Shown here: in pieces, positions 5,536 to 64,000 of the stretch
Numbering within the stretch: position 1 is the stretch's first letter
How the letters are laid out: the number at the start of each line of letters is the position of its first letter
NCBI GenBank assembly: GCA_029263125.1
Contig: JAJCYD010000024.1
Span: 58,699 to 122,698 of the forward strand
DNA length: 64,000 nt
Direction: 5' to 3'
Origin: Solirubrobacteraceae bacterium
Lineage (GTDB): Bacteria; Actinomycetota; Thermoleophilia; Solirubrobacterales; Solirubrobacteraceae
Program-made: the position numbers and the translations under genes
The notes under the pieces: model-generated
Database searches by the model: none
What the model saw: only the letters and a program-made list of their open reading frames with translations
Told to the model about the DNA's origin: nothing

Positions 5536-7443
5536 GTGAGGATTTCATCTTTGCTTCCCGACGGAGGTCTCCGTCTAGGAACGCGTCGATCGTCAGCCAC
5601 GGTCGCCCTCGACATCGGGCCCGACGCCATCGTCGTGCTGCAGTCGTCGGGAACCGAGCGCGCACGTGTACGTCGCGCCATCGTCCATCCACTACCCGTC
5701 GGACTCGTCGTCGACGGCGAGGTCGTCAACGCCGACCAGCTCGCCGTCGAGCTGCGCGCGCTCTTCACCGAGCACAAGCTGCCACGCGACGTTCGCGTCG
5801 GACTCGCCCACCCGCGCCTGATGGTGCGGATGGTGGAGCTTCCGGCGTCGCTCAGCGGGCGCGACCTCGATGGCGCGGTGCACCACATGGCCAGCGACCT
5901 GCTGCCGGTGGCGCTCGACCAGCTCGTGGTCGACTACCGCTGCGTCGGCAAGTCTCCCGCCGGCGACGGCCCGCCGATGCAGCGCGTCCTGATGGCCGCT
6001 GCACGCGCCGACGGCATCGAGCGCCTGACGCAGGCCCTCGCGGGCGCCCACCTCAAGGCCGAGCGCATCCAGCTCTCGGGTCTCGCGATGCTTGGCGCCT
6101 TCGACCATCCGCCGCTCGGCGGCGAGGCGATCCTCTACGTCCAGGCCGGCGCGCTGACGAACGTCGTCATCGCCGAGGACGACGAGCCGCTGCTGGTGCG
6201 CGCCGCGTCCGCCGGCTCCGAGTCGATCGCCCAGAGCCTCGCCGAGCGCACGGGCATCACCCACGAGGAGGCTCGCACGCACATCGCCGCGATGGGCGTG
6301 CAGGGCGCCGTCGCGCCGGGCGCTCGCGCTCTGGACCCCGAGCTGGAGGCCGCGGTCTCCCAGCAGGTCAGCGAGGGGCTGCGCCGCGTCATCGCGGAGA
6401 TCGAGTCCTCGCGCGGGTTCTACTCCGCGCGGCCCGACGCTCGTCCGATCGGCGGCGTCGTGCTGACCGGCGCGATGACCACGTGGCCCGGCGTCGCGGA
6501 GGTCATGCGCGAGGAGCTCAACGTGCCGGTCCTGCCCGCCGGGCGTGACGCCTGGCCGGATCTCGGAACGGTGTCGGTTCCCCCCGAGCGCCTCGACGTC
6601 GCCGTCGGGCTCGCGCTCGACGTCGGCAGCCAGCGCCCCGACCTGCGGCCGGCGAAGGCTGGGTCGACCGCGAGCTCTGGCGTCAAGGTTGCCTCCTCGG
6701 ACTCCGGCGGCCGCGTCGCGCAGGTCGCGTGCGGTGTCACGGCGCTCGTCGCGGCTGCCATGGTGTACGCGGTCGTCGTCTCCAACCAGGTCAGCTCCGG
6801 CCAGGAGCGCCTCGCCGACATCCGCACCGAGCTCGTGCAGTCCGAGCAGCAGGCAGCGGCGCTCAAGCCCTACGCCGACTTCGCTCAGACCACGACGAGT
6901 CGCAGAGCAGCGGTGAAGACGATCTCCACCGCACGCTTCAACTGGGACCGCTCGCTGACCGAGCTCGCGAAGGTCGCACCCGGCGACGTCTGGTTGAAGT
7001 CCGCCAAGGCGACGATCGACCCGAAGACCACCGTCGAGGGAGGCGCGAGCGCCGACACCAGCGCTCTGCGCGGCGCACTGCCCGGACCCGCAATCGAGCT
7101 GGCAGGTTGCGCGCAGAAGGAGAGCGACGTGCCGAAGTACATGGACCGTCTCTACTCGATGACGGGCGTCTCGGAGGTCGGCTTCAGCAAGACCGAGCGC
7201 CCCGTCAAGGGCAAGAACGGCGCCGCCACCGGGAGCGCGCAGTGTGCCGGCAACGACACATCGGCCTTCTCGCTGGTGACCTACTTCAAGCAGAGCGCCG
7301 CACTCGCGGCACTCAACGCTCCCGCTCCCGCTCCCGCCGCCGGCGGCTCCGGTTCGGCGGCGGTCGCGCCGACGACACCCCCAGCCGCGGCGACCGCCCC
7401 GGCAGCACAGACAGCCACCAACGGCACAGGAGCCCCGAAATGA
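5536..7443 (+). CDS. pilMN: Fused type IV pilus proteins PilM and PilN
   Basis: This 635-residue protein joins two type IV pilus alignment proteins that are normally separate. Residues about 22-375 are the actin-like PilM domain, with a first phosphate-like loop VALDIGPDAIVVLQ, conserved VRMVELPASL, and the closing VVLTGAMTTWPGVAEVMRE. After a Ser/Gly linker, a single transmembrane helix at about 395-413 (VALVAAAMVYAVVV-like) starts the PilN region, followed by a coiled coil (QERLADIRTELVQSEQQAAAL) and a periplasm-type ferredoxin-like domain. A low-complexity Ala/Pro tail ends the protein. PilM is cytoplasmic and normally binds the N-terminal tail of PilN, so fusion makes that interaction permanent. 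The start is GTG. The TGA overlaps the pilO ATG by four bases. Confidence 0.88.
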   Translation: MRISSLLPDGGLRLGTRRSSATVALDIGPDAIVVLQSSGTERARVRRAIVHPLPVGLVVDGEVVNADQLAVELRALFTEHKLPRDVRVGLAHPRLMVRMVELPASLSGRDLDGAVHHMASDLLPVALDQLVVDYRCVGKSPAGDGPPMQRVLMAAARADGIERLTQALAGAHLKAERIQLSGLAMLGAFDHPPLGGEAILYVQAGALTNVVIAEDDEPLLVRAASAGSESIAQSLAERTGITHEEARTHIAAMGVQGAVAPGARALDPELEAAVSQQVSEGLRRVIAEIESSRGFYSARPDARPIGGVVLTGAMTTWPGVAEVMREELNVPVLPAGRDAWPDLGTVSVPPERLDVAVGLALDVGSQRPDLRPAKAGSTASSGVKVASSDSGGRVAQVACGVTALVAAAMVYAVVVSNQVSSGQERLADIRTELVQSEQQAAALKPYADFAQTTTSRRAAVKTISTARFNWDRSLTELAKVAPGDVWLKSAKATIDPKTTVEGGASADTSALRGALPGPAIELAGCAQKESDVPKYMDRLYSMTGVSEVGFSKTERPVKGKNGAATGSAQCAGNDTSAFSLVTYFKQSAALAALNAPAPAPAAGGSGSAAVAPTTPPAAATAPAAQTATNGTGAPK

Positions 7444-8138
7444 TCAAGTCGGCTTCTCCGCACCAGAAGATCATCGCGGTGACCGTGCTCGTGGGCGTGG
7501 CGCTGATTGGCGCCCTGTGGCTCATGGTGATCTCGCCGAAGCGCACCGAGAGCGCCGAGGTGCGCGACAACGTCGCCGCGCAGGAGCTGCGTCTCAGCTC
7601 GGCCACGGCACAGCTCGCCAGCTACCAACAGGCCAAGAAGGACTACCCGAAGAACCTGCGGGTGCTCAAGCGCCTCGACAAGGCCGTTCCGTCACGGGGT
7701 GAGATCTCCAAGCTCCTGCGCCAGCTGCAGACCCGCGCCCAGGCTCGCAACAGCGATCTGCGGCTCGCAGCCCTCAAGCCGGCCCGAGCCGCTCCGGCCG
7801 CGGCCGGAGCGGTCGCATCGACCTCGACGTTGACGCCGGGCGCAACCGCCCCCGGTGCCAGCGGACTGGCGACGCTGCCATTCACGTTCACCTACACGGG
7901 CAAGTACTTCGATCTGGTCAAGGTCCTGAAGGCGGCTCGCCGCGCGGTCACGACGCGCTCGGGCAACCTCACGATCGACGGTCGGCTGGTGACGATCGAG
8001 GGTGTGAGCTTCGAGCGCACCGAGCCCGACGATCCGCTCATCACGGCGCAGATCAGCGCCACCGCCTACATCGCCGCTGCGCCGGCGACACCACCGTCCG
8101 CGGATCCCGCGGCCGCCACGACGCAGGGAGGGTCATGA
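7440..8138 (+). CDS. pilO: Type IV pilus inner-membrane protein PilO
   Basis: This 232-residue protein has one N-terminal transmembrane helix (IIAVTVLVGVALIGALWLMVI), a coiled coil, and a C-terminal ferredoxin-like domain (LPFTFTYTGKYFDLVKVLKAARRAV), the usual PilO arrangement. PilO pairs with PilN in the alignment subcomplex that links the pilus motor to the envelope. ATGA overlaps at both ends tie it to pilMN and the next gene. The Ala/Pro-rich insertion near residues 115-145 and the C-terminal tail are low complexity. Confidence 0.85.
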   Translation: MIKSASPHQKIIAVTVLVGVALIGALWLMVISPKRTESAEVRDNVAAQELRLSSATAQLASYQQAKKDYPKNLRVLKRLDKAVPSRGEISKLLRQLQTRAQARNSDLRLAALKPARAAPAAAGAVASTSTLTPGATAPGASGLATLPFTFTYTGKYFDLVKVLKAARRAVTTRSGNLTIDGRLVTIEGVSFERTEPDDPLITAQISATAYIAAAPATPPSADPAAATTQGGS

Positions 8139-9094
8139 TGCTCCGCGGTCTTGTCGACGATCTGGTCCGGCGGCGCCTGTGGCCGATCATGGCTCTCGCC
8201 GTCCTGGTGATCCTCGTAGCACCACTGCTGTTCCTGAAGTCCGCTCCCGACAACGCCCCGGCCGCCTCCGACGCGCCGCCGGCGGCACAGCCGGGCGAGC
8301 TTCCCACCGGCGGTGAGCGCCTGGTGACCGAGAGCAACAAGGCGACGACGCCTCGCTACAAGGGCGGCTCCAGCTCCGATCCGTTCGCCCCGCCGGCTTC
8401 GGCGATCGCGGCCACCAAGGCCGCCAACGCACCGGCCGCGACGAAGTCGCCGTCGAACGCGAAGTCGTCGAATGGCGCGACGAGCGCTGGCAAGCTCCCG
8501 TCGAAGGCCGTCATCACCAACGCGGACGGATCGAAGACGACGATCACGACGCAGAAGCCGTCGACGAGCAAGAAGCCGACGCCGAAGGCGAAGTCCGCCC
8601 CGCAGCCCAAGGCCACGCCCCCCGCGCGGTCGAAGACGACGTACGCATCGGTCAGCGTCCGCTTCGCCAAGAAGCAGGACAGCAAGGCCCGCCGCAACAT
8701 CCCGCGCCTGCAGACCTTCAAGGCCGGCGACACCGTCGCGGCGATGTTCGTCAAGTACTCGCCGGCGCGCAAGAAGGCGGTCTTCGCGATCGCCCCGAGC
8801 ACGAAGGTCTCGGGCGATGTGAAGTGCCGGCGCAAGAAGGGCGTGTGCCGCTACGTCGACATCCCCGAGGGCAAGAGCGTGCGACTGACGGTGCTCAAGG
8901 CCAACGGCGCCAAAATCACCCGCCGCCTGGACGTCGTCAAGGTCCTGACCACATCCGAGATCGCCGCATCGTCGGCCCCGGCGCCCACCGTCGCCGCCCG
9001 CACCGCGCCGCTCGCCCAAGCAACATGCCTGCTGAAGGGCATGCTGGTACTGCCGGTGTTCTACCCCTCGCTGCCGGCCGACGCCTGTGGGTAG
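8135..9094 (+). CDS. Unknown single-pass membrane protein in the pilP position
   Basis: This 319-residue protein is not recognised from sequence. It has an N-terminal transmembrane helix (LWPIMALAVLVILVAPLLFL), a long Ser/Lys/Ala/Pro linker from about 50 to 165, then a folded basic domain (YASVSVRFAKKQDSKARRNIPRLQTFKAGDTVAAMFVKYS...) with a CRRKKGVCRYVDI pair of cysteines. It lies after pilO with a 4-base overlap, where diderm operons carry pilP. It is not PilP-like in sequence. Inference: it extends into or across the wall and connects the alignment complex there. Confidence 0.6.
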   Translation: MMLRGLVDDLVRRRLWPIMALAVLVILVAPLLFLKSAPDNAPAASDAPPAAQPGELPTGGERLVTESNKATTPRYKGGSSSDPFAPPASAIAATKAANAPAATKSPSNAKSSNGATSAGKLPSKAVITNADGSKTTITTQKPSTSKKPTPKAKSAPQPKATPPARSKTTYASVSVRFAKKQDSKARRNIPRLQTFKAGDTVAAMFVKYSPARKKAVFAIAPSTKVSGDVKCRRKKGVCRYVDIPEGKSVRLTVLKANGAKITRRLDVVKVLTTSEIAASSAPAPTVAARTAPLAQATCLLKGMLVLPVFYPSLPADACG

Positions 9095-9818
9095 GGATCC
9101 GCACCCAGCCTCGGATGGTGGCTTCACGATCATCGAGGTCATGGTCGCGATGCTGATCCTGATCGTCGGGGTGCTGGGCACGCTCGTCCTCGTCGAGGGC
9201 GGCCTGTCCAGCACTAGCCGCACGACTGCTCGCGAGCAGGGGACCAACCTCGCTCGCGACCTCGTGGAGCGCAGCCGGCAGGCTGCCTACACCGACATGG
9301 CGGTGAACACCGCGCCGCAGACGCTGCACGACCTGCTGCCGGGCTCCGACAGCGCGACGGCGGTGACGGGCTCGGCCCCGAGCTCCACCTTTCAGATGAC
9401 GCGTCGCAACGTCGTCTACACCGTCAAGGTCTTCTCCTGCGCGGTCGACGACCCGTCGGACGGCATCGGAATCGGTACCGCAGGGTTCTGTGTCCCTCCA
9501 TCCACGCCGGGACCCAACCCGGACCCAATTCCCCCGACTGTCGGGGCCAACGTCCTGGGCATCAGCGTCGCGGCCGGCGGATCCCTGCTGAACACGGTCT
9601 GCAACGCCCTCGGCAATCCGGCTGTCATCGGTCAGCTCACCGCTACGGTCAGCACGCTGGTTCCCGTCAGCGTGTGCCCCCCAGGCTCTTCCGTCACCGA
9701 CGCCAACCTCGATTCAAACGCCGACGACTTCCACCGGGTGCGCATCGACGTGAGCTGGTCCAGCGGCGGCCCCAACCGAACGTTGACCCAGACAACCCTA
9801 CTGCCCAACCCGTCCTAG
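9087..9818 (+). CDS. Type IV prepilin-like protein (PilV type)
   Basis: This 243-residue protein carries a class III signal near residue 12: GGFTIIEVMVAMLILIVGVLG, with Gly at -1, Phe at +1 and Glu at +5, as required for prepilin peptidase. The hydrophobic helix continues into a coiled stretch and a Cys-containing globular domain. The IIEVMVAM form is typical of PilV-like minor pilins. The start is GTG and overlaps the preceding stop by eight bases. Confidence 0.85.
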   Translation: MGRDPHPASDGGFTIIEVMVAMLILIVGVLGTLVLVEGGLSSTSRTTAREQGTNLARDLVERSRQAAYTDMAVNTAPQTLHDLLPGSDSATAVTGSAPSSTFQMTRRNVVYTVKVFSCAVDDPSDGIGIGTAGFCVPPSTPGPNPDPIPPTVGANVLGISVAAGGSLLNTVCNALGNPAVIGQLTATVSTLVPVSVCPPGSSVTDANLDSNADDFHRVRIDVSWSSGGPNRTLTQTTLLPNPS

Positions 9819-9829
9819 GTGTGATTTCC

Positions 9830-10660
9830 ATGATGTCCAAGACGCTGAGCCAGGAAGACGGATTCACACTCGTCGAAATCCTCGTCGCGCTATCGCTGTC
9901 GATCATCGTGCTGTTCGCGACGCTGCAGAGCCTCGACCTCTTCAGCTCCAACGCAGCATCACAGACGCGCGTCACCGACGCCAACGAAAAGGTGCGCTTG
10001 ACGATGGACCGCACAGTGCGCGACCTGCGCGGAGCATCTACCATCTTGATCGCCACCAGCAACGACTTGGCCTACGCGGTGCCTGAGACCTCTGGCGTGC
10101 GCATCGCGCGACTCTGCGTGGACGGCACCGATGTCTACAGCTTCTCGGCCCCGGCCGCGGCAGCGGTTGCGCCAACGGCTACCTGCGCAAGCGGCTCCAA
10201 GATCGCCAAGGTGCGCACGACCGACCCGACGGCGTTCACATACGACGGAGCAGCCTCCGCTGCGGGGGCAGCTGCCGCGCTGGTCCGCAACGTTGGCCTC
10301 AAGCTCAGCGTGGATGCGAGCGGCGGCGGACGGACCGGAGGCAGCACGCTTACGGCCAGTGCGGCGGTCCGGCGGACTGCCGCCACGGTACCTGGAGGCG
10401 AGAACCCCATCCGCGTGGTGTGCGGCCAGACCGGTCCTCTGGTCACACTCGGGGTCGCGCTGCCGGTAGAGCTCGGTCAGCTCACGGTGACCTACCTGGT
10501 GAACGGCAACGTCACCGTGGCCGGCGGCACGGTGACGCCGGGCGGATCGGGTTCCTTGACCCTGCTCCCGCCGACGGCCACCCAGGTCGTCGCGATCGTC
10601 ACCGACTCGCTCGGGATCACCCGCGCGCTTTTCAACGACACCGTGGGGTGCGTCGCATGA
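9830..10660 (+). CDS. Type IV prepilin-like protein (PilW type)
   Basis: The ORF track begins far too early. The probable start is one of two adjacent ATGs (9830 or 9833), with a GTG at 9821 as an alternative. The protein has the signal EDGFTLVEILVALSLSIIVLFATL, with Gly at -1, Phe at +1 and Glu at +5. The PilW-like continuation includes KVRLTMDRTVRDLRGAS. The gene lies 11 bases after the PilV-like gene and overlaps the next ATG by four bases. It is probably a minor pilin or pilus initiator. Confidence 0.83.
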   Translation: MMSKTLSQEDGFTLVEILVALSLSIIVLFATLQSLDLFSSNAASQTRVTDANEKVRLTMDRTVRDLRGASTILIATSNDLAYAVPETSGVRIARLCVDGTDVYSFSAPAAAAVAPTATCASGSKIAKVRTTDPTAFTYDGAASAAGAAAALVRNVGLKLSVDASGGGRTGGSTLTASAAVRRTAATVPGGENPIRVVCGQTGPLVTLGVALPVELGQLTVTYLVNGNVTVAGGTVTPGGSGSLTLLPPTATQVVAIVTDSLGITRALFNDTVGCVA

Positions 10661-12414
10661 TTCGCAGACTGAAGTCCGGTGAAGACGGCTCCGCGATGAT
10701 CACGGCGCTGCTGGCGACCATCATGCTGCTCGCTCTCGGCATGGCGCTGCTGTCGATCGTCGACACGCAGGCCGATCAGTCAGCCCAGGAGCGCACCCGC
10801 GACCGCGCCTTCAACGTCAGCGAGACGGTGCTCAACAGCGAGGCCTTCGTGTTGGGACGCAACTGGCCCACGACGGCTCCGGCAGGAGATCCCACCTGTT
10901 CTGCGGCTGGCGCCGGCTTCGACGACCCGATCGGCATCGCCGCCGGGTCGACGCCGGCGTCAGAGCGGCTGCGCCGCAACCTCACAGAAAGCTACAACCC
11001 CGCCACGGACCCCGCCTACGCGGGAGCGACATGGCAGGTCAACATCTGCGACGACGATGATCCCGACGGCTCGGGCCCCCTTCCAGGTCCGACCGTCTGG
11101 AACGATTCGATGCTCGGCCATAAGGCCTGGGATTCGGAGAACAACGGCCCGGGCAAGCCGAAGGGAAACGGACGTGTGTGGGTCCGCGCACAAGCCACGG
11201 TGGCCGGCAAGACCCGCGTGCTCGCCGGACTCGTCAGAGTCACCAAGAGTCCGGTCGTGGATTCGCGCTACGCGCTCGTGGCGGGCGGGATATCCGATGA
11301 TCTCGGAGCATCGCTCAACACCATCACCAACCAGGGTGTGCTTGGCCAGGTCGTCACCGACCTGTTCGGTTCCACGAAGACCGTGGAGGTCGATCCGACA
11401 GCGGGCGCGCCAACGCCGAACGGAATCACGGGTCTGCGCTGCGGCGCCGCGGACATCATCGGCGGCGGGTCGCCCTGCGTAAGCGGCACCTTGGGTGCCG
11501 CAGCCGCCGTCCCGGTGGTCGCCAGCCTCGTGACCGGCGACAAGATCGAGAACTTCCCCCGCACGACCTCGACACCGAATCGCACCATCGAGCAGTTGCG
11601 CAATCAGGCTCGGACGTCGGGCACCTATACCGCGGTCTCAGCGGGCACTGCCCCCATAACGAGTTCGAACCCGCTGAACCTCACGGACACCGCGCCCGCA
11701 AGCGTGACAGCGTGCACCATCACCGGGGCACCCGATCAGAACACCGTCGCCTTCGTCGAACAGGTCGGAAACACGGGCGCCGAGAACGCGGTTGGTGGTC
11801 GCGGTGACCAGTACTGCGCAATCGACGTCACGGTCGCCAAGCGCTACAAAGCCATTGTTGTCGCCAGCGGGCGCGTCGTGATCCGCGGTGACAACACCAC
11901 GACCGCCTCGACGGACACGGCTCGCAACAACTTCACCGGCGTGGTCTACGGCCTCAACCTCCAGCGCCTTGACGTCGACAAGGGAGGGCGTGGACTGGGT
12001 GACGTCACGGCGCGCGAGGTGGTCCGCATCGACCGAGGCGCCCACATTCAGGGAGCGGTCCACGCAGACGGCCGCAGCGCAAGGGTGGGGAGCTATCCCC
12101 CGCCACTCACGATCAACACGAACACGCTCGTGGACGCGCTGATTCCATGCGTGATCGTGCTCGGCCTACCCGTCTGCATCCTGCGAGACACGATCAAGGC
12201 CCTCACCACCGGACTGACGGGGATCGTCGACAGCCTCCTGAACAACGGCGTCAGCGTCACGAACCTGGCTAATGCGCTACTGACGCAGGTCAGGCCGCAG
12301 CGCGCGAGCTACGGCCCGGCGATCACCGCCAACGTGGCGGCGATCAACGCACTCACGACATATGGACCTTCCGCGGTCGTCCCCGGCACCTTCCGCGACC
12401 TCCAGGCGCGGTAG
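10657..12414 (+). CDS. Large PilX-like pilus-tip or minor pilin protein
   Basis: This 585-residue protein has an N terminus SGEDGSAMITALLATIMLLALGMALLSI. It resembles PilX, with a short basic leader, Gly-Ser instead of the Gly-Phe cleavage pair, and no Glu at +5. The long exported part has several Cys residues and Thr/Asn-rich strands, and near residues 500-560 a second hydrophobic stretch (ALIPCVIVLGLPVCIL). Size and position as last gene of the operon suggest a tip adhesin or assembly-priming protein. The ATG overlaps the previous TGA. A strong hairpin follows. Confidence 0.7.
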   Translation: MIRRLKSGEDGSAMITALLATIMLLALGMALLSIVDTQADQSAQERTRDRAFNVSETVLNSEAFVLGRNWPTTAPAGDPTCSAAGAGFDDPIGIAAGSTPASERLRRNLTESYNPATDPAYAGATWQVNICDDDDPDGSGPLPGPTVWNDSMLGHKAWDSENNGPGKPKGNGRVWVRAQATVAGKTRVLAGLVRVTKSPVVDSRYALVAGGISDDLGASLNTITNQGVLGQVVTDLFGSTKTVEVDPTAGAPTPNGITGLRCGAADIIGGGSPCVSGTLGAAAAVPVVASLVTGDKIENFPRTTSTPNRTIEQLRNQARTSGTYTAVSAGTAPITSSNPLNLTDTAPASVTACTITGAPDQNTVAFVEQVGNTGAENAVGGRGDQYCAIDVTVAKRYKAIVVASGRVVIRGDNTTTASTDTARNNFTGVVYGLNLQRLDVDKGGRGLGDVTAREVVRIDRGAHIQGAVHADGRSARVGSYPPPLTINTNTLVDALIPCVIVLGLPVCILRDTIKALTTGLTGIVDSLLNNGVSVTNLANALLTQVRPQRASYGPAITANVAAINALTTYGPSAVVPGTFRDLQAR

Positions 12415-12436: not shown

Positions 12437-12472
12437 CCTGTCCAGGGGCTCACCTCACCGCCCCTGGACAGG
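12437..12472. terminator. Bidirectional hairpin between the pil operon and the DUF559 gene
   Basis: A perfect 13-bp stem (CCTGTCCAGGGGC with GCCCCTGGACAGG) encloses a 10-base loop, 22 bases after the last pil stop codon. The distal arm lies inside the last codons of the convergent gene. There is no clear T tract. Confidence 0.65.
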
Positions 12473-13378
12473 GCCGCTGCGTCCTCCCAGCAGCGCCGCG
12501 AGCTCGGCGAGCATGTACGCCGGCCGCTCGATGACGTCGCCGTAGGTGTAGCGGCGGAACTCGTCGCCGCGGGCGCGCGCCTCGCGCTCGCGCCGGCGGT
12601 CCTGCTCCCAGGCATGGCGTGAGCGGTGGTAGCGGTAGCCGTCGAGCTCGACGGTGAGGCGATGGTCAGGCCAGCGGCAGTCCACGCGGCGCCCGCCGGC
12701 CGGCCGATTGGTCAGCGGCTGCGGAAGGCCGGCGTCAGCCAACCGCGCCAGGAAGCGGCGCTCCAGCGGGCTGAGCGTGACCTGCGCGTCACCGCGCATG
12801 ATCGCACGCAGCTTCGCCGCGCCCGGCCGGTTCGGACACCGTGCCAGCACCCGCTCGACATGGCGGGGAGTCGTGTCGTGACGCACTCCCGCCTCGTGGC
12901 ACGCTCGCGCCAGGTCGTCGACGCTCAGCGTCGCCGCAAGATCGACGAGCGTACGCGCGGGGGTCGTGACGGGGATCGCCAGCCACGTCATGACGTCACG
13001 GCGATCGACGCGACGCGTTCGCCGCGTGCGGATGCCGGGAATCCGGCGTTCGGTCGTCGTCAGCACCTGCGGCGCCGGCACCGACCCCTTCAGGATTCCA
13101 AGCAGGTGCGCCGCCGCCCGACCGCGGAGCCACGCCCCCGCCCCACAGGCCCACACGGCGGCCAGGTAGCGCGCCTCGACGCTCGCCGCACGGTGCCCGA
13201 CGCGGTACATCCCGTGGTGCAGGCGCAGGAGCGACCCGATCTGCGACCGGTGCCTGCTCTCCGCGTCGGTGATCCCCGCGTCCAGGAGCTGCGCCCGTGT
13301 GACCACGCCGTGCGCCGCGCTCGCCAACCGCACCAGCTCCTGCTCCACTGTCCTGTCCTGTGGTGCCACCACCACCAA
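12455..13378 (-). CDS. AbiEi-type HTH plus DUF559 endonuclease-like protein
   Basis: This protein of about 300 residues has an AbiEi-like winged-helix N terminus (ASAAHGVVTRAQLLDAGITDAESRHR ... LHHGMYRVGH) and a C-terminal DUF559 region of the Vsr/restriction-like fold (RRVDCRWPDHRLTVELDGYRYH), where the WPD and VELDG acidic residues match the family. Such proteins are common single genes in actinobacteria. The AbiEi part is known from type IV antitoxins, but no toxin is adjacent. The track start is TTG, followed by GTG codons at 13375, 13372 and 13369; one of these may be the real start. An inverted repeat and a GGCGAGTTT-type motif cover the start. Confidence 0.7.
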   Translation of the reverse strand: MVVVAPQDRTVEQELVRLASAAHGVVTRAQLLDAGITDAESRHRSQIGSLLRLHHGMYRVGHRAASVEARYLAAVWACGAGAWLRGRAAAHLLGILKGSVPAPQVLTTTERRIPGIRTRRTRRVDRRDVMTWLAIPVTTPARTLVDLAATLSVDDLARACHEAGVRHDTTPRHVERVLARCPNRPGAAKLRAIMRGDAQVTLSPLERRFLARLADAGLPQPLTNRPAGGRRVDCRWPDHRLTVELDGYRYHRSRHAWEQDRRREREARARGDEFRRYTYGDVIERPAYMLAELAALLGGRSGPVQGR

Positions 13379-13391
13379 TAGGCAGGACAGT
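13347..13391. promoter_or_regulatory. Inverted repeat spanning the start of the AbiEi/DUF559 gene
   Basis: Nine-base perfect arms ACTGTCCTG (13347-13355) and CAGGACAGT (13383-13391) flank the start codon region, and the distal arm sits between the two boxes of the candidate promoter at 13376-13409. AbiEi antitoxins are known to repress their own promoters through inverted repeats, so an autoregulatory operator is a reasonable inference. Confidence 0.45.
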
Positions 13392-13409
13392 GCCGAAACT
13401 CGCCCCCCC
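13376..13409 (-). promoter_or_regulatory. Copy D of the GGCGAACTT two-box motif
   Basis: Read on the minus strand this is a G7 tract, CGAGTTTCGG, then CCTATT after about 14 bases, directly at the DUF559 gene start. It is the least conserved of four copies (AGTTT for AACTT). Confidence 0.4.
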
Positions 13410-24613: not shown

Positions 24614-25186
24614 CTAGTGCTCTGTGTCGGCGAACAGCGTGTCGAGCGCCAACGAGAAGCCGGGCATTGCCGGCGACGTGAGCGTGTCGCCACGCCCGAC
24701 CTCGAGCGCGACATCGAACGTCGGCGCCGCGGGCACGCTGCGGCGGAACACGAGCACGACGTCGGCGGCGGTGTCCACGAGCCACAGCTCGGGCAGGCCG
24801 TACTGCTCGTAGTGGCGCAGCTTGGCCCCGATGTCATAGCGCCACGTCGATGGCGAGCGCACTTCCACGGCGAGGTCTGGGATCGGCGACGGGCGACCGC
24901 CGTCTCGGCGCGGACCCGTTCCTTCGGTGTACCAGAGCAGGTCAGGGGCGAAGACGTTGAAATCGTCCATGCGCACGTCCAGCGGCAGCCACGAGTGGCC
25001 GCGTCCGCAAGCGGCACGCCGCCAATCGCCGATGGCGAAGAACAGCTCACCCAGAACCCCTTGGTGCAGCGGCAGCGGCTCCTCCACGACGATCACCCCA
25101 TCTATGAGGTGCGTCTTGCGGTCCTCCAGATCGAGCGCGAGGTACTCGTCTGCGGTCATGAGCGCGGCAACCGGCACAGCGGTCAT
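24614..25186 (-). CDS. Uma2-family (DUF820) putative nuclease-like protein
   Basis: This 190-residue protein matches the Uma2 family with a restriction-endonuclease-like fold: ALMTADEYLALDLEDRKTHLIDGVIVV at the N terminus, APDLLWYTEG, the PD/ExK-like PIPDLAVEVRSPSTWRYDIGAKLRHYEQYGLPELWLVDT. The biological role of the family is unknown. The ATG follows an AGGAGGCGAG ribosome binding site. A two-box intergenic motif lies just upstream, between this gene and the rluB stop. Confidence 0.82.
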   Translation of the reverse strand: MTAVPVAALMTADEYLALDLEDRKTHLIDGVIVVEEPLPLHQGVLGELFFAIGDWRRAACGRGHSWLPLDVRMDDFNVFAPDLLWYTEGTGPRRDGGRPSPIPDLAVEVRSPSTWRYDIGAKLRHYEQYGLPELWLVDTAADVVLVFRRSVPAAPTFDVALEVGRGDTLTSPAMPGFSLALDTLFADTEH

Positions 25187-25230: not shown

Positions 25231-25263
25231 CATAGGCCCTGGCGACCCGAAGTTCGCCCCCCC
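25231..25263 (-). promoter_or_regulatory. Copy C of the GGCGAACTT two-box motif
   Basis: On the minus strand this is a G7 tract, CGAACTTCGGGTCGCC, then GCCTATGAC, 45 to 77 bases upstream of the Uma2-like gene and just after the rluB-type stop codon. Spacing between the boxes is about 14 bases, as in copy D. Confidence 0.45.
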
Positions 25264-55063: not shown

Positions 55064-55909
55064 TCAGCCCAGCGCCTGGACCAGCACGGCCGCGACGAGC
55101 AGCATCACGGCGGGCACGAGCACGAGCGCGACCACGAGCTGGATCTTCGGCGCCGCACGCGCGCCGTCGTCGCGCAGCAGCCGGGCCTGCTCGGCTCGCG
55201 CCTCGGTGACGAGCGCCTCCAGCGCCGGCGCCAGCGGCGCGCCGTGGCGGTCGGCGCGCGTCACCGCGGCGGTCAGCGTCGCGACGCCGTCAGCGGGGCA
55301 GCGCGCCACCAGCTGCTCGAAGGCTTCGGCGCGCGTGGCGCCGAGCTGCATCCTCCTCGCCGCGGCGCGCAGCTCGCCGGCGAGCACGCCCTGACAGCGC
55401 TCGCCAACCTCAGCCAGAGCGCGGCCGATCGGAAGCCCGGCCTGGACCGCGACGCGCAGCAGATCCAGCACGTCGGCCAGCTCGTGACCGATCCGGGCGG
55501 CGCGAGCGCGAGCGCGGCGCGCCAGGAGGAGATCGGGCGCGAGGAATCCGCCGGCCGGCGCGCACAGCATCGCCACGACGCCCAGGCGCCCCGGGAGCGA
55601 TCCGATGAGCGTGATCGCCAGCAGCAGGCCGGTCAGCGCTCCGACGGCCTTGAGCGCCATGACGTCGGTCGGCCCAAGACCCAGCGGGTCTCCCGCGGCG
55701 GCGATCCGCGCATGCAGGTCGGCCGGCGGCAGCATGCCGGCGCGGCGGCGCGCCAGGCCGGCGAGCGCGACGGTCATCGCTCCGAGCCGGGTGCGGCGCC
55801 GCCCGGCGGGCGAACGGCGGCCGCGTGCTCGCGGGTGAGCGAGCAGTTCGACGATCGCCGCCGCGCCGGCGGCGCCCGCGAGCCCCGCCAACACGGCGGC
55901 GGCGCTCAC
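55064..55909 (-). CDS. tadC: Tad pilus inner-membrane platform protein TadC-like
   Basis: This 281-residue protein has a type II secretion F domain (ELADVLDLLRVAVQAGLPIGRALAEVGERCQGVLAGELRAAARRMQLGATRAEAFEQLVARC) between hydrophobic segments at both ends. The start is GTG (VSAAAVLAGLAGAAG), overlapping the tadB stop by four bases; the track adds 13 residues. With TadB it should form the platform on which TadA acts. Confidence 0.85.
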   Translation of the reverse strand: MSAAAVLAGLAGAAGAAAIVELLAHPRARGRRSPAGRRRTRLGAMTVALAGLARRRAGMLPPADLHARIAAAGDPLGLGPTDVMALKAVGALTGLLLAITLIGSLPGRLGVVAMLCAPAGGFLAPDLLLARRARARAARIGHELADVLDLLRVAVQAGLPIGRALAEVGERCQGVLAGELRAAARRMQLGATRAEAFEQLVARCPADGVATLTAAVTRADRHGAPLAPALEALVTEARAEQARLLRDDGARAAPKIQLVVALVLVPAVMLLVAAVLVQALG

Positions 55910-56766
55910 CGCATGTCCCCCACTCGCGCGATCCGCCGGACACAGCAATACGCGAGGACCTGAAGTCCCACGGCGCCCGCCACGAGCGCCGCCGTCAACG
56001 GCGAGCCGGCGAGCGTTCGCAGATATCCCGGCGACGCGATCTCACCGAGTGCGAGTCCCGCGAACGGCAGGCCGATCACGAGCAGTGCGGTGAAGCGCGC
56101 CTGCGCGGTCGCCGATCGCGCCTCGGCCACGACGCGGCCGCGCGATTCCAGCGCGGACGCCAGCGAGCGCAGCAGCCCGGCGAGATCGCCGCCCGCGTCG
56201 CGCTGCAGCAGGACCGCGGCGACGAGCGTGTCGCACGGCCCCGGCCCGGCCCACCTGGCGAGCTCGCCCAGCACGTCCTCGGTGCGCTCGCCGAGCTCCA
56301 GTGCCGCCGCCGCGGCTCGCAGCTCCTCGCCGGCGGCGCCCCGGACGCCTCCCCCGTGCGCCGCGGCCCCGATCGCGCCGCGCACCGAGTGCCCGCCGGC
56401 CAGCGCGTCGGCCAGGGCGCGAGCGATCGCCGGCGCCTGCGCCGCGATCGCCTCGCGGCGGCGCCGCGCGCGTGCCCGCAGGACGGCGCGAGCGATCCAC
56501 GGCCCCGCCGCCCCGAGCCCGGCCGCGATCAGCGGGCCGGCGGCCAGCCATCCCGCCGCGGCCAGCGACAGGACCCCGACGAGCGCCAGCCGCCGGCGCT
56601 CCGGGCTCGTCGGCTCGCGCCCGCTGCGCAGGGCATCCAGCGCCGGCGCGAGCCAGCGGCCGGCGCGGCGAACGACCCGCTGCTGCTCGGCGGCGGCGAT
56701 CAGCTCCCACGCCGCCAGCACGGCGCAGGCGGCGGCCAGCCCGGCGAGGAGGGCCGTCGCGCTCAC
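55906..56766 (-). CDS. tadB: Tad pilus inner-membrane platform protein TadB-like
   Basis: This 286-residue protein has N-terminal hydrophobic segments, a cytoplasmic F domain (IARALADALAGGHSVRGAIGAAAHGGG ... LARWAGPGPCDTLVAAVLLQRDAGGDLAGLLRSLASALESR) and two C-terminal membrane helices. It overlaps tadA and tadC by four bases each. Confidence 0.85.
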   Translation of the reverse strand: MSATALLAGLAAACAVLAAWELIAAAEQQRVVRRAGRWLAPALDALRSGREPTSPERRRLALVGVLSLAAAGWLAAGPLIAAGLGAAGPWIARAVLRARARRRREAIAAQAPAIARALADALAGGHSVRGAIGAAAHGGGVRGAAGEELRAAAAALELGERTEDVLGELARWAGPGPCDTLVAAVLLQRDAGGDLAGLLRSLASALESRGRVVAEARSATAQARFTALLVIGLPFAGLALGEIASPGYLRTLAGSPLTAALVAGAVGLQVLAYCCVRRIARVGDMR

Positions 56767-57956
56767 GCCGCGCGGGCAAGGCGCGTGGCGAGCGCGTCGG
56801 CGAGCGGCGCGCGCCAGGTCGGGCGGCCATCCTGCGACAGCGTGTACAGCTCGCGCGTCCCCGCCCCGCCGGCGATCCGCACGATCTCGCTGACGGCCAC
56901 GACGCGGCGCGAGCCGTCGGCCATCCGCGCCTGGTGCACGACGAGGTCCAGCGCACCGGCGACCTGATCGCGGACCGCTTCGTGGGGCAGCCCGAGCCCG
57001 GCCATCAGCGCCAGCGTCTCGACGCGGCGCAGCGCCTCCTCGGGCGACCCGGCATGCACGGTCGACAGCGAGCCGTCGTGGCCGCTTGACATCGCGCTGA
57101 GCATGTCCAGCGCCTCGGCCCCGCGCACCTCGCCGACGACGATCCGGTCGGGTCGCATGCGCAACGCGTTGCGCACGAGCCGCCGCACGGTGACCTCGCC
57201 GCGTCCCTCAAGCGACGCCGGGCGCGCCTCCAGGCGGACGACGTGCGGATGGCGCAGGCGCAGCTCGGCGGCGTCCTCGACGGTCACGATCCGCTCACCG
57301 TCGTCGATGAACTCGGTGAGGGCGTTGAGCGTCGTCGTCTTGCCCGAGCCGGTGCCGCCGCTGATCAGCAGGTTGCAGCGCGCGCGCACCGCCGTGCGCA
57401 GCAGGTCGTGCAGCGGCGCGGCCCACGTGCCGTTGGCGACGAGGTCGTCGGGGCCGAAGCCGCGCGGCCGAAAGCGGCGGATCGTCAGCACCGAGCCGTC
57501 GAGCGCCAGCGGCGCGACGACGACGTTGACGCGCGAGCCGTCGGGCAGGCGCGCGTCGCACAGCGGCTCGGCCTCGTCGACGCGGCGCCCGATCGGCGCG
57601 AGGATGCGCTCGATGGCGTGTCGCAGGTCCGCTTCGCCGGCGAAGCACGCCGCCGTCGGCTCGATGCGTCCGGCGCGCTCGACCCACACCTTGGCGTGCC
57701 CGTTGACCATCACCTCGTCGACCGTTGGATCTGACAGCAACGGCTCCAGCGGCCCCAGGCCGAAGGATCGCTCCGCGACGCGGGCGACCAACCTCGCCCG
57801 CGCGGCGTCGTCCAGCAGCCCGGCCTCCCGGTCGACGAGCGCGCGGATGCGCTCGTGCAGGTCGCCGCCGTCGTGCCGGGCGGCCTCGCCCAGCAGGCGG
57901 TCGCGCAACGAACCGGCGAGCTCGTCGAGCGCCGCGTCGCGGTCGAAGTGGTCCAT
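56763..57956 (-). CDS. tadA: Tad/Flp pilus assembly ATPase TadA (CpaF)
   Basis: This 397-residue secretion ATPase has the N-terminal domain with LEPLLSDPTVDEVMVNG, Walker A LLISGGTGSGKTTTLNAL, Asp box VTVEDAAELRL, Walker B PDRIVVGEVRGAEALDMLSAMSSGHDGSLSTVHA and the His box. Its start codon is only four bases after CTCTAAG of the candidate promoter motif, so the mRNA may be leaderless. The Flp pilin and prepilin peptidase are not in the window. Confidence 0.95.
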   Translation of the reverse strand: MDHFDRDAALDELAGSLRDRLLGEAARHDGGDLHERIRALVDREAGLLDDAARARLVARVAERSFGLGPLEPLLSDPTVDEVMVNGHAKVWVERAGRIEPTAACFAGEADLRHAIERILAPIGRRVDEAEPLCDARLPDGSRVNVVVAPLALDGSVLTIRRFRPRGFGPDDLVANGTWAAPLHDLLRTAVRARCNLLISGGTGSGKTTTLNALTEFIDDGERIVTVEDAAELRLRHPHVVRLEARPASLEGRGEVTVRRLVRNALRMRPDRIVVGEVRGAEALDMLSAMSSGHDGSLSTVHAGSPEEALRRVETLALMAGLGLPHEAVRDQVAGALDLVVHQARMADGSRRVVAVSEIVRIAGGAGTRELYTLSQDGRPTWRAPLADALATRLARAA

Positions 57957-57960
57957 GCCC

Positions 57961-57994
57961 CTTAGAGGAGCGGGCCGACGGAAGTTCGCCCCCC
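57961..57994 (-). promoter_or_regulatory. Copy A of the GGCGAACTT two-box motif, before tadA
   Basis: On the minus strand: G6, CGAACTT, 16 bases, then CTAAGGGGC and the tadA ATG. It lies in the 60-bp gap after the metalloprotease stop codon. The position just before the start codon supports a promoter role. Confidence 0.5.
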
Positions 57995-58016: not shown

Positions 58017-60284
58017 TCAGCCGAGATTGCCGATGCTCTTGCCGTCCTGCTCGCCTCGGTATGGACCTCCGCGCGCACGGAGGTCTCCGGTGAACTGGAT
58101 CGTCAGGTAGGCGTCGGGGTCGTTCGCGGCACTGGACGGGAGCCGCTCGTCGACGCTCCAGCGGCCGTCGCGGATCGTGGCTTTCGCCGTCCACACTTCG
58201 GCCGCGCCGCCAGCGGACCGATAGGTCGCCCTGAGCCTCACCACACCTGAGACGTCGCGATCGACCGTGCCGCCGACCGACAATCGTCCGCCCGAGAAGG
58301 TCAGCCGATCTCGCACCAGGAGGGTCCGGCCGTGCGCGGCCCGCAGCCGCAGTTCGTCGGAGAGCGTCGCGCCGTTGCCCGCATACGACACATTGAGAAT
58401 CCCGCTGGACCGGCCGCGCTGGCGGGCGTGCAGTCTCGCGCTCAGACGAACCGGCTTCTCCCCCTCGCGAGCGGTTCCGACATCGACGGTATAGCGCTCG
58501 AAGCGGCCGGCCGCCTGATAGTCGATCGTCAGCTTGCCGGTGGCGCGGCCCGTGATCGAGAACAGCACATCCAACCGCCCGCCTTTCACGGACGCGCGCT
58601 TGACCTTCAGCTTGGCGGGAAACTTCGCCCCACCCGACGAGCGCGCCGGTAGCTGTGCCGACGACGAGGCCGGCCGAGGTGCGAGCGCCTGCGGCGGCTG
58701 AGCCGTCTGCGGTGCCGGTGCCGGCTGCGGCGCTTGGAACTGCACCACCGCTCCCCCCAAGGATCGGTTACCCGCCACATCCACGGCGACCGCCCGGTAT
58801 CCGTGCGCCCGTCCGTCGGCCGGTCCGGTCTCCGCGAAGGCTTGGGTCGTCGTCTGCGCGACCACGGCACCGTCGCGCTCGATCTCATAGTGGCTGAGTT
58901 CCTCGTCGTCGCTGGCCGCAAACCACGAGAAGTCAACCGTCGTCGCGCTCGTCGCCGAGCTGCGCAAGCGCGGGGCCTCGGGCGGCGTGGCATCTGGTCG
59001 GGGCACGACGATGCTCACGGTCGCCCCGCCCGCATCGATCGCGCCGACGCGAAGCTCGGTGCCCGAGACCGGATCGAGAAACGACGCCCCCGACAGGAGG
59101 GCGGCGTCGCCGAAGCCGCCCGGCGAGCCGGGCGTCATGTCCAAGAGCGCCGACTGCTGTCGTCGCTCGATGGCCTGCACGAGCCTCACCGAGACACCCT
59201 GAACGACCGGCTGACTCGAACCGAATGCGTCGAAGGGCGCGCTCGCACGCCGGAGTTCGAGCGCGAAGAAGTCCTGCGTCGCCTGTCCGGAGACTCGCCG
59301 CGGCACCCTGATCGAGCGCACGCCACTCGTCGATGTCGTCGGCGCCAGACGGATCGTCTGCGACGCGCGCACGTAGGCATCGTCACCTGCCGAGATGTTG
59401 TCAGTCTGCAGCCGGTGCCAGGTCGACATCAGACTCGACCCGAGGGCCATGGTGTCAAACGGATCGCCGTACTCATCGACCGAGCACGACGAACTGCCAG
59501 CGAGGCTGACCGGTGCGCCGGCCTGTGCACAGGCAAGCGTCGACGCGTGGTGAGCTCCCATGTTGTGCCCCAGCTCGTGCGTGATGACCGACACGTCCGG
59601 GCCGCCGTTGTACCAGCTGATCGGACCCGCCACGTCCCCGAGACCGCCATAGGTGCAGTCACGGAGGTTGGGGTGAACGATGGCGACGTGGTCGAAACCG
59701 TCGAGGGAGGAGCCCAGCCGGTTGAACACCTCGCGCTTGAATGCGTCGTAGTCGCATCCTACGCCGCTCACGCTCAGCGCGAGCGGTGCGAAGGTCTCGC
59801 CCGCCAGCGTGACGCGCCCTGCACTCTGCTGTCCGAAGAACCGAGCCGCGGATTGCTCGGCTTCAAAGAAACTCTGCCGTGCTTGGGCTTGCGTCGTCGG
59901 GGCTGCAGGTGCGTCGGACAGTGTCACGATCACGACGGCAACGCGGCGAGGCCCGGCTCCGATCCGTGCCGACGTAGCGGCCGAGTCGTCGAGCGGTTCG
60001 ACACGTCCGCGCAGCGTCGTGCCGTCCCCGCTGCCTACGACCCGCACGAGCCGGCCGAGCAGCGGTCGCGCGTCGTTCGTGGCCTCGACCCTCCAGTCAC
60101 GTCCGTCCCTGCCGCGCAACGTGAGCCGGTCTTCGCTGCTTTCCGCGTCGAAGTCGTCGAGATGCTCGACGATCAACGTCCCCGTCCATGCCGATGGACC
60201 ACCCGCGGCGCTGGCCTGCGACCCTGAGAGCGAGATCAGGCAACTGCCGAGCAGCACGATTCGCAGCCAGTCCTTGATACTCAC
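58017..60284 (-). CDS. Secreted M11-type (gametolysin-like) zinc metalloprotease
   Basis: This protein of about 755 residues has a signal peptide (IKDWLRIVLLGSCLISLSGSQASA), a metzincin-like domain with zinc site SVITHELGHNMGAHHAST and a later Met in DTMALGSSLMS, a fibronectin-III-like domain (PPEAPRLRSSATSATTVDFSW), and a beta-rich C-terminal domain also found in the propeller protein at 15413. The GTG at VSIKDWL is preceded by GAGGCGG at the right distance and was chosen over two upstream ATGs. It may cleave extracellular or wall proteins. It sits between tadA and cpaB. Confidence 0.8.
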   Translation of the reverse strand: MSIKDWLRIVLLGSCLISLSGSQASAAGGPSAWTGTLIVEHLDDFDAESSEDRLTLRGRDGRDWRVEATNDARPLLGRLVRVVGSGDGTTLRGRVEPLDDSAATSARIGAGPRRVAVVIVTLSDAPAAPTTQAQARQSFFEAEQSAARFFGQQSAGRVTLAGETFAPLALSVSGVGCDYDAFKREVFNRLGSSLDGFDHVAIVHPNLRDCTYGGLGDVAGPISWYNGGPDVSVITHELGHNMGAHHASTLACAQAGAPVSLAGSSSCSVDEYGDPFDTMALGSSLMSTWHRLQTDNISAGDDAYVRASQTIRLAPTTSTSGVRSIRVPRRVSGQATQDFFALELRRASAPFDAFGSSQPVVQGVSVRLVQAIERRQQSALLDMTPGSPGGFGDAALLSGASFLDPVSGTELRVGAIDAGGATVSIVVPRPDATPPEAPRLRSSATSATTVDFSWFAASDDEELSHYEIERDGAVVAQTTTQAFAETGPADGRAHGYRAVAVDVAGNRSLGGAVVQFQAPQPAPAPQTAQPPQALAPRPASSSAQLPARSSGGAKFPAKLKVKRASVKGGRLDVLFSITGRATGKLTIDYQAAGRFERYTVDVGTAREGEKPVRLSARLHARQRGRSSGILNVSYAGNGATLSDELRLRAAHGRTLLVRDRLTFSGGRLSVGGTVDRDVSGVVRLRATYRSAGGAAEVWTAKATIRDGRWSVDERLPSSAANDPDAYLTIQFTGDLRARGGPYRGEQDGKSIGNLG

Positions 60285-60413
60285 AGCCGTACCGCCTCGG
60301 TTAAAGAACATGGCCCGATAGATGCGCGCGAACATTAGCGCCCTAGTGCGTCGACTATCACCTCGCCATCACATTGACCTGCCGGTGTACTGGTAGTCAC
60401 ATCAGCCCTGGCG

Positions 60414-60821: not shown

Positions 60822-61529
60822 CTACCGGAAGTCCGAGCCCATCCGCAGGCCGACCTTGCCGCGAGCGCGATCGCCGTCGGAGCGTGGCAGCAGCCGCAGC
60901 TCGCGCGCGAAGTCCTGTGCCGCCGCCAGGTAGACCGCCTGGCGCAGCGTGACGCGCAGCGACACGGCGACACGGTCGCCGGGCACAGCCTCCGTGCCGC
61001 GGCTGGGGGCCTGCTCGGTCGCGGTGAATGCGGCGGCGTCGAGCACCTCGACGTCCTCGAGCGCGAGCACCGTCTGGCCGCGCTCGTCGGCTTGCGGCTC
61101 GGGCGTGACGAGAATGTCGACGCGGCTGCCCGCGGTGACGAGGTCCGGCGAGCCGAGCGCGACGAGGTGGGCGATGCGCTCGCCGCGGCGAATCGGCGGA
61201 CCGGCGGGGCGAGAGCGCCCGTCGCCGACCATGGCCGCCGACAGGTCGGTGCCCGCGGGAATGTCGACGGATGCCCTCAGTCCCTGAAGCTCATCGGGCG
61301 AGGCGATCCGGCCGTCGGAGGCGAAGCGCTGAGGCACGCGCCGCACCGCGAGCGCCTGGGGCTTGATCTGCATGCCGGCGTCGATCGGCTCCCGCGCCAC
61401 GACGACGTTGACGAGCTCGCCGACGCGGCGTGACAACGACGCCTCCCTGCCGGCGATGCTCGAGGCCGCCAGCCCGCCCAGGATCAGCGCGAGGCCGCCA
61501 AGCAGCAACGCACGACGGCGGTGGCTCAT
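60822..61529 (-). CDS. cpaB: CpaB/RcpC-type Flp pilus assembly protein (SAF domain)
   Basis: This 235-residue protein has an N-terminal transmembrane helix (ALLLGGLALILGGLAASSIAG), a SAF-type domain (VVVAREPIDAGMQIKPQALAVRRVPQRFA ... VDIPAGTDLSAAMVG) and an RcpC/CpaB C-terminal region (GSRVDILVTPE ... DVEVLDAA). It is a periplasm-side Tad assembly factor in diderms; here it would sit outside the membrane. It overlaps the kinase gene by four bases. Confidence 0.85.
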   Translation of the reverse strand: MSHRRRALLLGGLALILGGLAASSIAGREASLSRRVGELVNVVVAREPIDAGMQIKPQALAVRRVPQRFASDGRIASPDELQGLRASVDIPAGTDLSAAMVGDGRSRPAGPPIRRGERIAHLVALGSPDLVTAGSRVDILVTPEPQADERGQTVLALEDVEVLDAAAFTATEQAPSRGTEAVPGDRVAVSLRVTLRQAVYLAAAQDFARELRLLPRSDGDRARGKVGLRMGSDFR

Positions 61530-62251
61530 CGCTGCCTCCCGCCGGCATGTCGCTGGGGCAGCTCGATCCCGATGCGCGCGCCGCGTTGCGACGGCGCCGC
61601 GACGAGGCGACCGCCATGGCGCTCGGCGATCTCGGCGGCGATCGCCAGACCCCGGCCGCGCCGGCCGCGCCCGCCGCGCGCCCGCCTCGTGAGGTCGCCG
61701 ACGGACGCCGGCAGCCCGGGTCCCTCGTCGCTGACCTCGATGCGCACGTGCCGGTGACCAACCACGCGCGCGGTGAGCTCGACGCGTCCGCTCGCGTGCT
61801 CGAGGGCGTTGGCCACGAGGTTGGAGATCGCCTGCGCGAGCCGGATCCGGTCCGCGTGGACCCTCGCGTCTCTCGCGATCGCGCCCAGCGCGATCTGGCT
61901 GTCGAAGCTCGCGGCCACGGCGCGCCAGCTTTCGAGCTGCTCCTCCAGCAGCTCGGCCACGGCGATCGACTCCGTGCGATCGATCGACCGCTTGCCGCTG
62001 CGAGCGGCCGCGAAGTCGTCGAGCGCGAGGGCGGCGCGGCGCAGCTCGAGATCGATCGCCGCCAGGCGCTCCGGCGGCGCCTCCTCGCGGCGCTCCATCG
62101 TGGCGAGGCTGAGTCGCACGGCCGTCAGCGGCCCCCGCAGCTCATGGCAGGCCCGGGCGACGAGCTCGCGGCGCCGACGCAGCTCATACGCCGCGGCGCC
62201 CGCGACCGCGAGGCCAAGCGCCGCGAGCACCCACGCGAGCGGCACATCCAC
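61526..62251 (-). CDS. Membrane histidine kinase without sensor domain
   Basis: This 241-residue kinase has one N-terminal transmembrane helix (LAWVLAALGLAVAGAAAY) followed directly by HisKA with H box ARACHELRGPLTAV, and a HATPase domain with N box AQAISNLVANALEH, G1 SDEGPGLP and G2 GRGLAIAAEIAERHGG. There is no extracellular or PAS sensor domain. The likely partner is the OmpR-type regulator at the window end. The 4-base overlap with cpaB suggests that it controls pilus genes. Confidence 0.87.
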   Translation of the reverse strand: MDVPLAWVLAALGLAVAGAAAYELRRRRELVARACHELRGPLTAVRLSLATMERREEAPPERLAAIDLELRRAALALDDFAAARSGKRSIDRTESIAVAELLEEQLESWRAVAASFDSQIALGAIARDARVHADRIRLAQAISNLVANALEHASGRVELTARVVGHRHVRIEVSDEGPGLPASVGDLTRRARGGRGRRGRGLAIAAEIAERHGGRLVAAPSQRGARIGIELPQRHAGGRQR

Positions 62252-62682
62252 GTCACGCCTCGTTGCATGTTGTCGTCACGTTCATGACCCGCGTTCTTGT
62301 TGGAGGTTCGCCAGCCGCGCCCTGGGGTGGCGTGCCGCACCCCATAGAGGGCCGGGAGAGCGAAAGTTCGCCCCCTCGGCCGATCCGACCGGCGGCCGCC
62401 GCCGCGGTGACCTTGGGGTCGCCGTTGACGTACATCGTGCAGACCGCATGCACCCCGGTGTCGGCGATCAGCCTCGCCTTGGCGTCGAAGCGCAGCATCC
62501 GTGTCTCCGCGAGCAGGTCGGCCATCGGTCTTACGTCGTAGACCGGTCGGCGATCCCGGAGAGCACGACCGAGCTGGCCGGAGGCACGATCCGGACCGAC
62601 GAGGGTCCCCGCGGACCTGGAGGCCCGACGGATCGGGCACCGGTCGTGCCTCTCCGTCAACCGGATAGCGCGGGGGGCTTGC
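62252..62682. other. Gene-poor stretch upstream of the kinase, with possible coding remnants
   Basis: No intact gene is supported. On the minus strand, MADLLAETRMLRFDAKARLIADTGVHAVCTMYVNGDPKVTAAAAAG (from 62525) looks protein-like but runs into an intergenic motif, and another frame upstream reads SVRIVPPASSVVLSGIADRSTT before a stop. They may be parts of a decayed gene. I cannot name a family. Confidence 0.35.
62341..62375 (-). promoter_or_regulatory. Copy B of the GGCGAACTT two-box motif, upstream of the kinase
   Basis: On the minus strand: G5, CGAACTT, 16 bases, then CTATGGGG, about 90 bases before the kinase start. Spacing and boxes match copy A closely, so both halves of the pilus locus carry the same signal. 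Confidence 0.5.
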
Positions 62683-63580: not shown

Positions 63581-64000
63581 TCAGCTCGCGAACGTTCCTC
63601 CCAGTTTGGGCACTTGCGTCTGATGCAACACCCCATCTACGAGCCGGTACCCCACGCCCCAGACGTTCACCACGTAGCGATCGCCGTGGCGGCCGAGCTT
63701 GGCACGCAGACGGCAGGCGTGGGAATCCAGGGTGCGCGTCGAGCCGGTGGAGCGGTAGCCCCAGATGCCGCGCAGCAGCTCCTCCTTGGTGAAGACCCTC
63801 GTCGGCTCGGACACCAGCGTGCGCAGCAGCGCGAACTCCTTCGCGGACAGGATCACACGATCGCCGCGCAGGCGCACCTCGCGCGACGGCGGATCGACCT
63901 CCAGCTCACCCGCTCGCAGGCAGCCGGTCGCGGTGCGGCGGTTGGCGCGTCGCAGCAATGCCGCGACGCGTCCGCGCAGCTCGGGATAGGAGAAGGGCTT
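63581..64000 (-). CDS. OmpR-family response regulator, cut by the window end
   Basis: Only the last 139 residues are in the window. The first residues KPFSYPELRGRVAALLRR are the end of the receiver domain (conserved KPF). The rest is a winged-helix DNA-binding domain: LEVDPPSREVRLRGDRVILSAKEFALLRTLVSEPTRVFTKEELLRGIWG ... RTLDSHACRLRAKLG and VWGVGYRLVDG. It probably pairs with the histidine kinase at 61526, about 1.3 kb downstream on the same strand, separated by the repeat and pseudogene insertion. Confidence 0.9.
   Translation of the reverse strand, partial: KPFSYPELRGRVAALLRRANRRTATGCLRAGELEVDPPSREVRLRGDRVILSAKEFALLRTLVSEPTRVFTKEELLRGIWGYRSTGSTRTLDSHACRLRAKLGRHGDRYVVNVWGVGYRLVDGVLHQTQVPKLGGTFAS

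Follow-up and report, generated by a model that had tools for sequence, protein, structure and literature searches.

A recurrent two-box element before Tad pilus, regulatory and DNA-handling genes in Solirubrobacterales as a probable ECF-type sigma factor promoter

In a 64,000-nucleotide stretch of a Solirubrobacteraceae genome (hereafter the window), which forms part of contig C24 of a 3.75 Mb draft assembly, a two-box motif recurs between genes, and this repetition is real. The motif is best explained as a bipartite promoter of the ECF type, whose likeliest reader is an autoregulated, zf-HC2-fused sigma factor distributed throughout the order, a reading to which a probability of roughly 0.6 is assigned. 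Under this explanation box 1, GGGGCGAACTT with the core GGGGNGAA, would represent the -35 element and box 2 the -10 element.

The first-pass annotation of the window had listed four copies of the motif, all of which are present where it placed them, on the minus strand, between genes and directed towards the next gene (Table 1). The four copies share the layout GGGGCGA(A/G)(C/T)TT, 13 bases, CCT, and then A or CTA. The spacers of 14 or 16 bases originally described reduce to one constant interval of 13 bases from CTT to CCT, the apparent difference reflecting second boxes that read CCTA or CCTCTA. When scored against GGGGCGAACTT-N13-CCT, three copies match at 14 of 14 positions and the fourth at 12, and a scan of both strands for GGGGCGAACTT followed by N12/13 and CCT, with at least 12 of the 14 positions matched, returned exactly these four. 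Third-order Markov copies of the window, scored like the real window and serving as the chance level, contained 0.9 sites at 12 or more positions, 0.07 at 13 or more and 0 at 14. At the copy near 13376, an annotated-looking open reading frame begins with TTG within the second box, and several GTG codons are located downstream at the usual distance.

Table 1. Promoter elements and associated genes in the window (positions counted from the first base of the window).
Feature	Position	Strand	Remark
Promoter element GGGGCGAACTT-N13-CCT(CTA) before tadA	57966..57992	-	CCT starts 12 nt before ATG at 57956
Promoter element GGGGCGAACTT-N13-CCT(CTA) before Tad-linked histidine kinase	62348..62374	-	
Promoter element GGGGCGAACTT-N13-CCT(A) before Uma2-family gene	25234..25260	-	
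Variant promoter element GGGGCGAGTTT-N13-CCT(A) before DUF559 / AbiEi_4 gene	13380..13406	-	
TadA/CpaF ATPase (T2SSE)	56763..57956	-	Best NCBIfam TIGR03819, below cut-off
TadB-like T2SSF inner membrane protein, downstream of tadA	55906..56766	-	
Short histidine kinase (HisKA + HATPase_c)	61526..62251	-	
CpaB/RcpC-like Flp pilus assembly protein, downstream of kinase	60822..61529	-	
OmpR-type response regulator, C-terminal part	63581..64000	-	Rest on contig C10
DUF559-type protein	12455..13378	-	AbiEi_4 N-terminal; MTES_1575 nuclease-like C-terminal, below cut-off
Uma2-family putative nuclease	24614..25186	-	

Contigs C10 and C24 share 141 identical terminal bases, and they are very likely neighbours whose junction falls inside the response-regulator gene. 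The promoter of this gene, on C10, reads GGGGCGAGTTG-N13-CCTATAGAGGGCATG, and the response regulator, the kinase and tadA of this genome each possess a separate copy of the element. The Tad cluster also encodes, between cpaB and tadA (58017-60335), an apparently secreted protein of 772 residues with merely weak partial matches to peptidase and glucanase models. Elsewhere in the window (5536-12414) lies a type IV pilus-like cluster, including PilM/PilN and an N-methylation pilin, which is devoid of the element.

Beyond the window, the motif is sparse but specific, as judged against the reversed pattern as a control. The genome scan suggested by the first-pass annotation, employing the strict form CGAACTT-N12-18-CTAW, produced 4 matches in 3.75 Mb, all on C24, versus 6 control matches, and the motif devoid of its G tract was accordingly rejected as a specific signal. 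The motif becomes enriched only when the pattern includes the G tract: GGGGCGAACTT-N12-18-CTA yields 5 matches versus 0 in the own genome, and the looser form GGGGCGANNNT-N12/13-CCTM yields 13 versus 1, a few of these 13 lying within genes or in unclear sequence. A still looser 15-mer with 2 mismatches returned 221 matches versus 148, mostly noise, and was discarded. Across 146 genomes of the family, GGGGCGAACTT-N12/13-CCT was matched 68 times versus once by the control, and in 86 genomes of sister families 13 times versus 3.

The geometry of the element was examined in 79 GGGGCGAACTT half-sites gathered without requiring box 2. The spacer position at which CCT begins is 12 in 24 of these half-sites and 13 in 17, with at most 4 cases at any other position, and ATG or GTG start codons peak at positions 24-27. 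Box 2 is CCTA or CCTCTA, with CCTTA in sister families, and drift has changed the element to GGGGAAAAC ... CTTTAG in clade g19. Start codons fall 5-13 nt after box 2, and in many genes the interval from the first base of CCT to the start codon is mostly 11-15 nt, which fits leaderless transcripts. Transcription would probably start on the initiation codon or next to it and yield leaderless mRNAs; were the ATG the start point, box 1 would lie near -35 and box 2 would span -12 to -9. Conservation is confined to the site itself, with the flanks varying among genomes while the boxes, their spacing and the distance to the start codon are kept, and the motif is strongly biased in orientation and in position relative to genes. 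Box 2 is unlike the housekeeping -10 (TAnnnT), a T at the place of its -7 position being present in 3/41 sites, which speaks against an activator working with the principal sigma factor. As a side observation, the copies before g29 pilin genes (L064, L066, L285, L292) have an inverted C-tract, CGCCCCC...GGGGGCG, upstream, which is possibly a hairpin or an operator overlapping box 1.

The genes downstream of the motif, called by GC3-based choice of open reading frames rather than by a gene finder, cluster into recurrent families. Those conserved across genera encode the Tad pilus ATPase, its histidine kinase and response regulator, a pilin-like protein, secreted proteins, RecQ, RecD2, DUF559 and Uma2. 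The element before the tadA start is conserved in five genomes (G002, G006, G036, G129, G147), TadA ATPases being among the targets in clades g1, g18, g26 and g30, and the short histidine kinase carries it in 7 genomes, with orthologous kinase genes so equipped in other genomes of g1, g6 and g29. Further DUF559/AbiEi-type genes with the element occur in the own genome (C24:53387), in G002 and G006 and in family f2, and further Uma2 genes at L051, L370, L412 and L413. Additional targets comprise the OmpR-type response regulator, an ECF sigma factor, a secreted protein of ~490 residues, a pilin-like GQATxEY protein (g29), RecQ (g1), RecD2 (g29), a PD-(D/E)XK protein and DNA methylases, as well as ssb and a yraN-like gene, each in a single genome of the sister families. 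Some of the recurrent sites, such as those of DUF559 and Uma2, may reflect gene families that spread together with their promoters. At L051 (1495-1600; G000 C38:33.8 kb), two elements stand back to back, one driving RecQ and the other, with CCTTG as its second box, driving a Uma2 gene.

A pointer to the reader is the ECF sigma gene itself, which follows the motif in G002 and G030; its orthologue in the own genome (C14:167.5 kb) is preceded by GGGGGGCGAGGTTGCGCATAGGGTGCCCTACAGGG. The protein contains sigma-70 regions 2 and 4 (r4_2 just below the cut-off) and zf-HC2, followed by a hydrophobic stretch and a tail rich in Pro, Ala, Ser and Thr, and low-complexity tails of 100-150 aa occur in most orthologues. 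Most of the order possesses the gene, usually in single copy. Under a lenient definition, the element is present upstream of 24 of the 46 sigma orthologues in the family in the sense orientation and of none in the antisense orientation, versus 0/19 for weaker ECF hits, some of them from the same genomes (Fisher p 3e-5), and its rate in the comEC/dprA control regions is 0.003 per 270 nt. Another 40 upstream regions of order-wide sigma genes (11 from the own family and 29 from sister families) score at least 12 in 15 cases in the sense orientation versus 1 in the antisense; about half of the sigma orthologues match the element weakly or not at all. The sigma factor is present in 24/26 motif-bearing genomes of the family and in 9/11 of those in sister families; one order-wide search employed a query 80% identical to the own sigma, and presence or absence alone was taken from it.

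On these grounds, the first-pass proposal of a -35/-10 pair for an alternative sigma factor is supported by the fixed spacing from box to box and on to the start codon, the missing -7 T, the bias in orientation and position and the element before the ECF gene across the order, while its second option, an activator site combined with a -10, retains some footing in that the regulator gene keeps the element where the sigma factor is missing. In the preferred autoregulated ECF sigma reading, the fused zinc finger, as its resemblance to known systems suggests, would serve as a built-in anti-sigma brake, and release of the sigma factor, presumably from this brake, would generate positive feedback through its own promoter. 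The freed sigma factor would then activate itself, the Tad pilus with its two-component system and secreted proteins, together with a varying set of DNA-handling genes (RecQ, RecD2, DUF559, Uma2).

Clades g24 and g23, in which no orthologue of the zinc-finger-fused sigma was found, bear directly on this assignment. The element is not confined to genomes with the sigma factor: in these clades 6/14 response-regulator genes keep it, so that the zinc-finger-fused sigma is not proven to be the cognate factor. It is therefore conceivable, although unlikely, that another sigma factor, be it a different ECF or different ECFs by clade, reads the element and has the zinc-finger-fused ECF among its targets. 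The persistence of the element in clades lacking the fused sigma, and the further ECF genes that these clades hold as weak hits, accord with such a reader; against it, none of the 19 weaker ECF hits is preceded by the element, and the 185-aa ECF genes examined in g24, which were rejected as a replacement sigma, have a different upstream sequence with no matching element.

Attention must also be given to the Tad-linked OmpR-type response regulator, which might bind box 1, recruit RNA polymerase and autoregulate itself, the kinase, the Tad genes and the other targets, an arrangement judged decidedly unlikely. The element occurs most regularly before the response-regulator gene, in 22/29 cases in sigma-bearing clades besides the 6/14 in sigma-less ones, and since the genes for the response regulator and the kinase also carry the element, autoregulation does not single out the sigma factor. 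Nor do phyletic profiles discriminate between the two candidates, the presence of the motif being associated with the sigma factor (p 5e-6) about as strongly as with the response regulator (p 2e-5) in tests uncorrected for phylogeny. OmpR-type regulators usually bind direct repeats, whereas box 1 is a single asymmetric copy; that box 2 is not a housekeeping -10 also argues against this reader. No second copy was seen upstream when the flanks were inspected by eye. Furthermore, motif sites occur in four genomes lacking a close orthologue of the regulator (G030, G040, G060, G126), two of which are less than 80% complete; the sites in G030 and G040, with completeness of 96% and 90%, make the regulator alone insufficient as an explanation.

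The nature of the targets raises the further idea that the motif is the promoter of a natural-competence regulon, in which DNA uptake through Tad pili would be coupled to DNA processing. RecQ, RecD2, PD-(D/E)XK, DNA methylases, ssb and the yraN-like gene among the targets are in keeping with it, but the regions in which a competence regulon would be sought lack the element, no site having been detected at comEC in 10 genomes (operon regions of 5) or around dprA/yraN in 20 genome regions, and competence is consequently regarded as very unlikely. Chance or a dispersed mobile repeat has a negligible probability and is already refuted by the controls, for although similar strings arise by chance elsewhere, and the pattern in Actinokineospora is an unrelated dispersed repeat, the reversed controls are near zero, the conserved targets have unrelated flanks and the distance to the start codon is fixed. 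A collection-wide scan of contigs gave only chance matches and this repeat, in which GGGGCGAACTT is embedded in conserved flanks unrelated to the promoter (loci L093, L110, L118, L141, L131).

The autoregulated ECF sigma explanation has close counterparts among known systems. By domain layout, the sigma factor is likened to ECF52, ECF53 and ECF48 of Actinobacteria, with an ECF domain, a zinc finger (PF13490), a hydrophobic segment and a Pro-rich tail (PMC5826349, PMC8999054), and in ECF48/52/53 sigma factors the fused zinc finger has been proposed to act as a built-in anti-sigma (PMC8999054). In contrast to ECF52, the own-genome sigma has no Pfam match to a carbohydrate-binding domain. For SCO4117 (ECF52) of Streptomyces coelicolor, which of the sigma factors described comes nearest to this one, autoregulation has been proposed and the motif CSGYN-17bp-SRHA reported, the promoter specificity of zinc-finger-fused ECF sigmas being described as unsettled (PMC5826349); the present motif and its targets differ from those of SCO4117. 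Linked two-component systems also govern Flp/Tad pili elsewhere, which was counted in favour of the response regulator: an adjacent system controls the Flp/Tad genes of Pectobacterium (PMC3767616), and PprAB controls the type IVb pili of Pseudomonas aeruginosa (PMC3510237). As here, a kinase and a response regulator are linked to or control Tad/Flp genes together with secreted adhesins; unlike there, both regulator genes are situated behind a sigma-like bipartite promoter that they have in common with an ECF sigma gene.

The boxes themselves resemble those of Escherichia coli sigma-E (RpoE, ECF02), whose promoters have a GAACTT-like -35 and a TCTA- or TCTGA-like -10. With GAACTT aligned, the spacer of the present element is 2-3 nt shorter, and further differences lie in the long G tract before its -35 and in the architecture of the sigma factor. 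The type of switch is familiar, but no description of this motif or regulon was found in open-licence papers. The element provides a testable regulon for a bacterial lineage with no described regulons in the open-licence papers searched and gives a zinc-finger-fused ECF sigma a likely promoter; as judged from sequence, it would also tie an ECF sigma to the expression of Tad pili and supply a named promoter for DUF559 and Uma2, two widespread but obscure families. The candidate regulon may serve a state of surface contact or gene exchange. The comprehensive version, in which one order-wide, self-activating ECF sigma with a zinc-finger brake couples recombination helicases, DNA methylases and the nuclease-like proteins DUF559/Uma2, through leaderless promoters, to the Tad pilus with its two-component system in a DNA-exchange or surface-contact state, is tentative and rather unlikely in its entirety.

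The g24 genomes offer a separate observation (L534-L541). Repeated AATTAG/CTAATTGAGTC-like sequences stand before their genes for ECF sigmas of ~185 aa, which are oriented divergently to a gene for a conserved LPGSNVLQQLVNGAEAWA-like peptide, and this family probably constitutes a separate regulon with its own motif.
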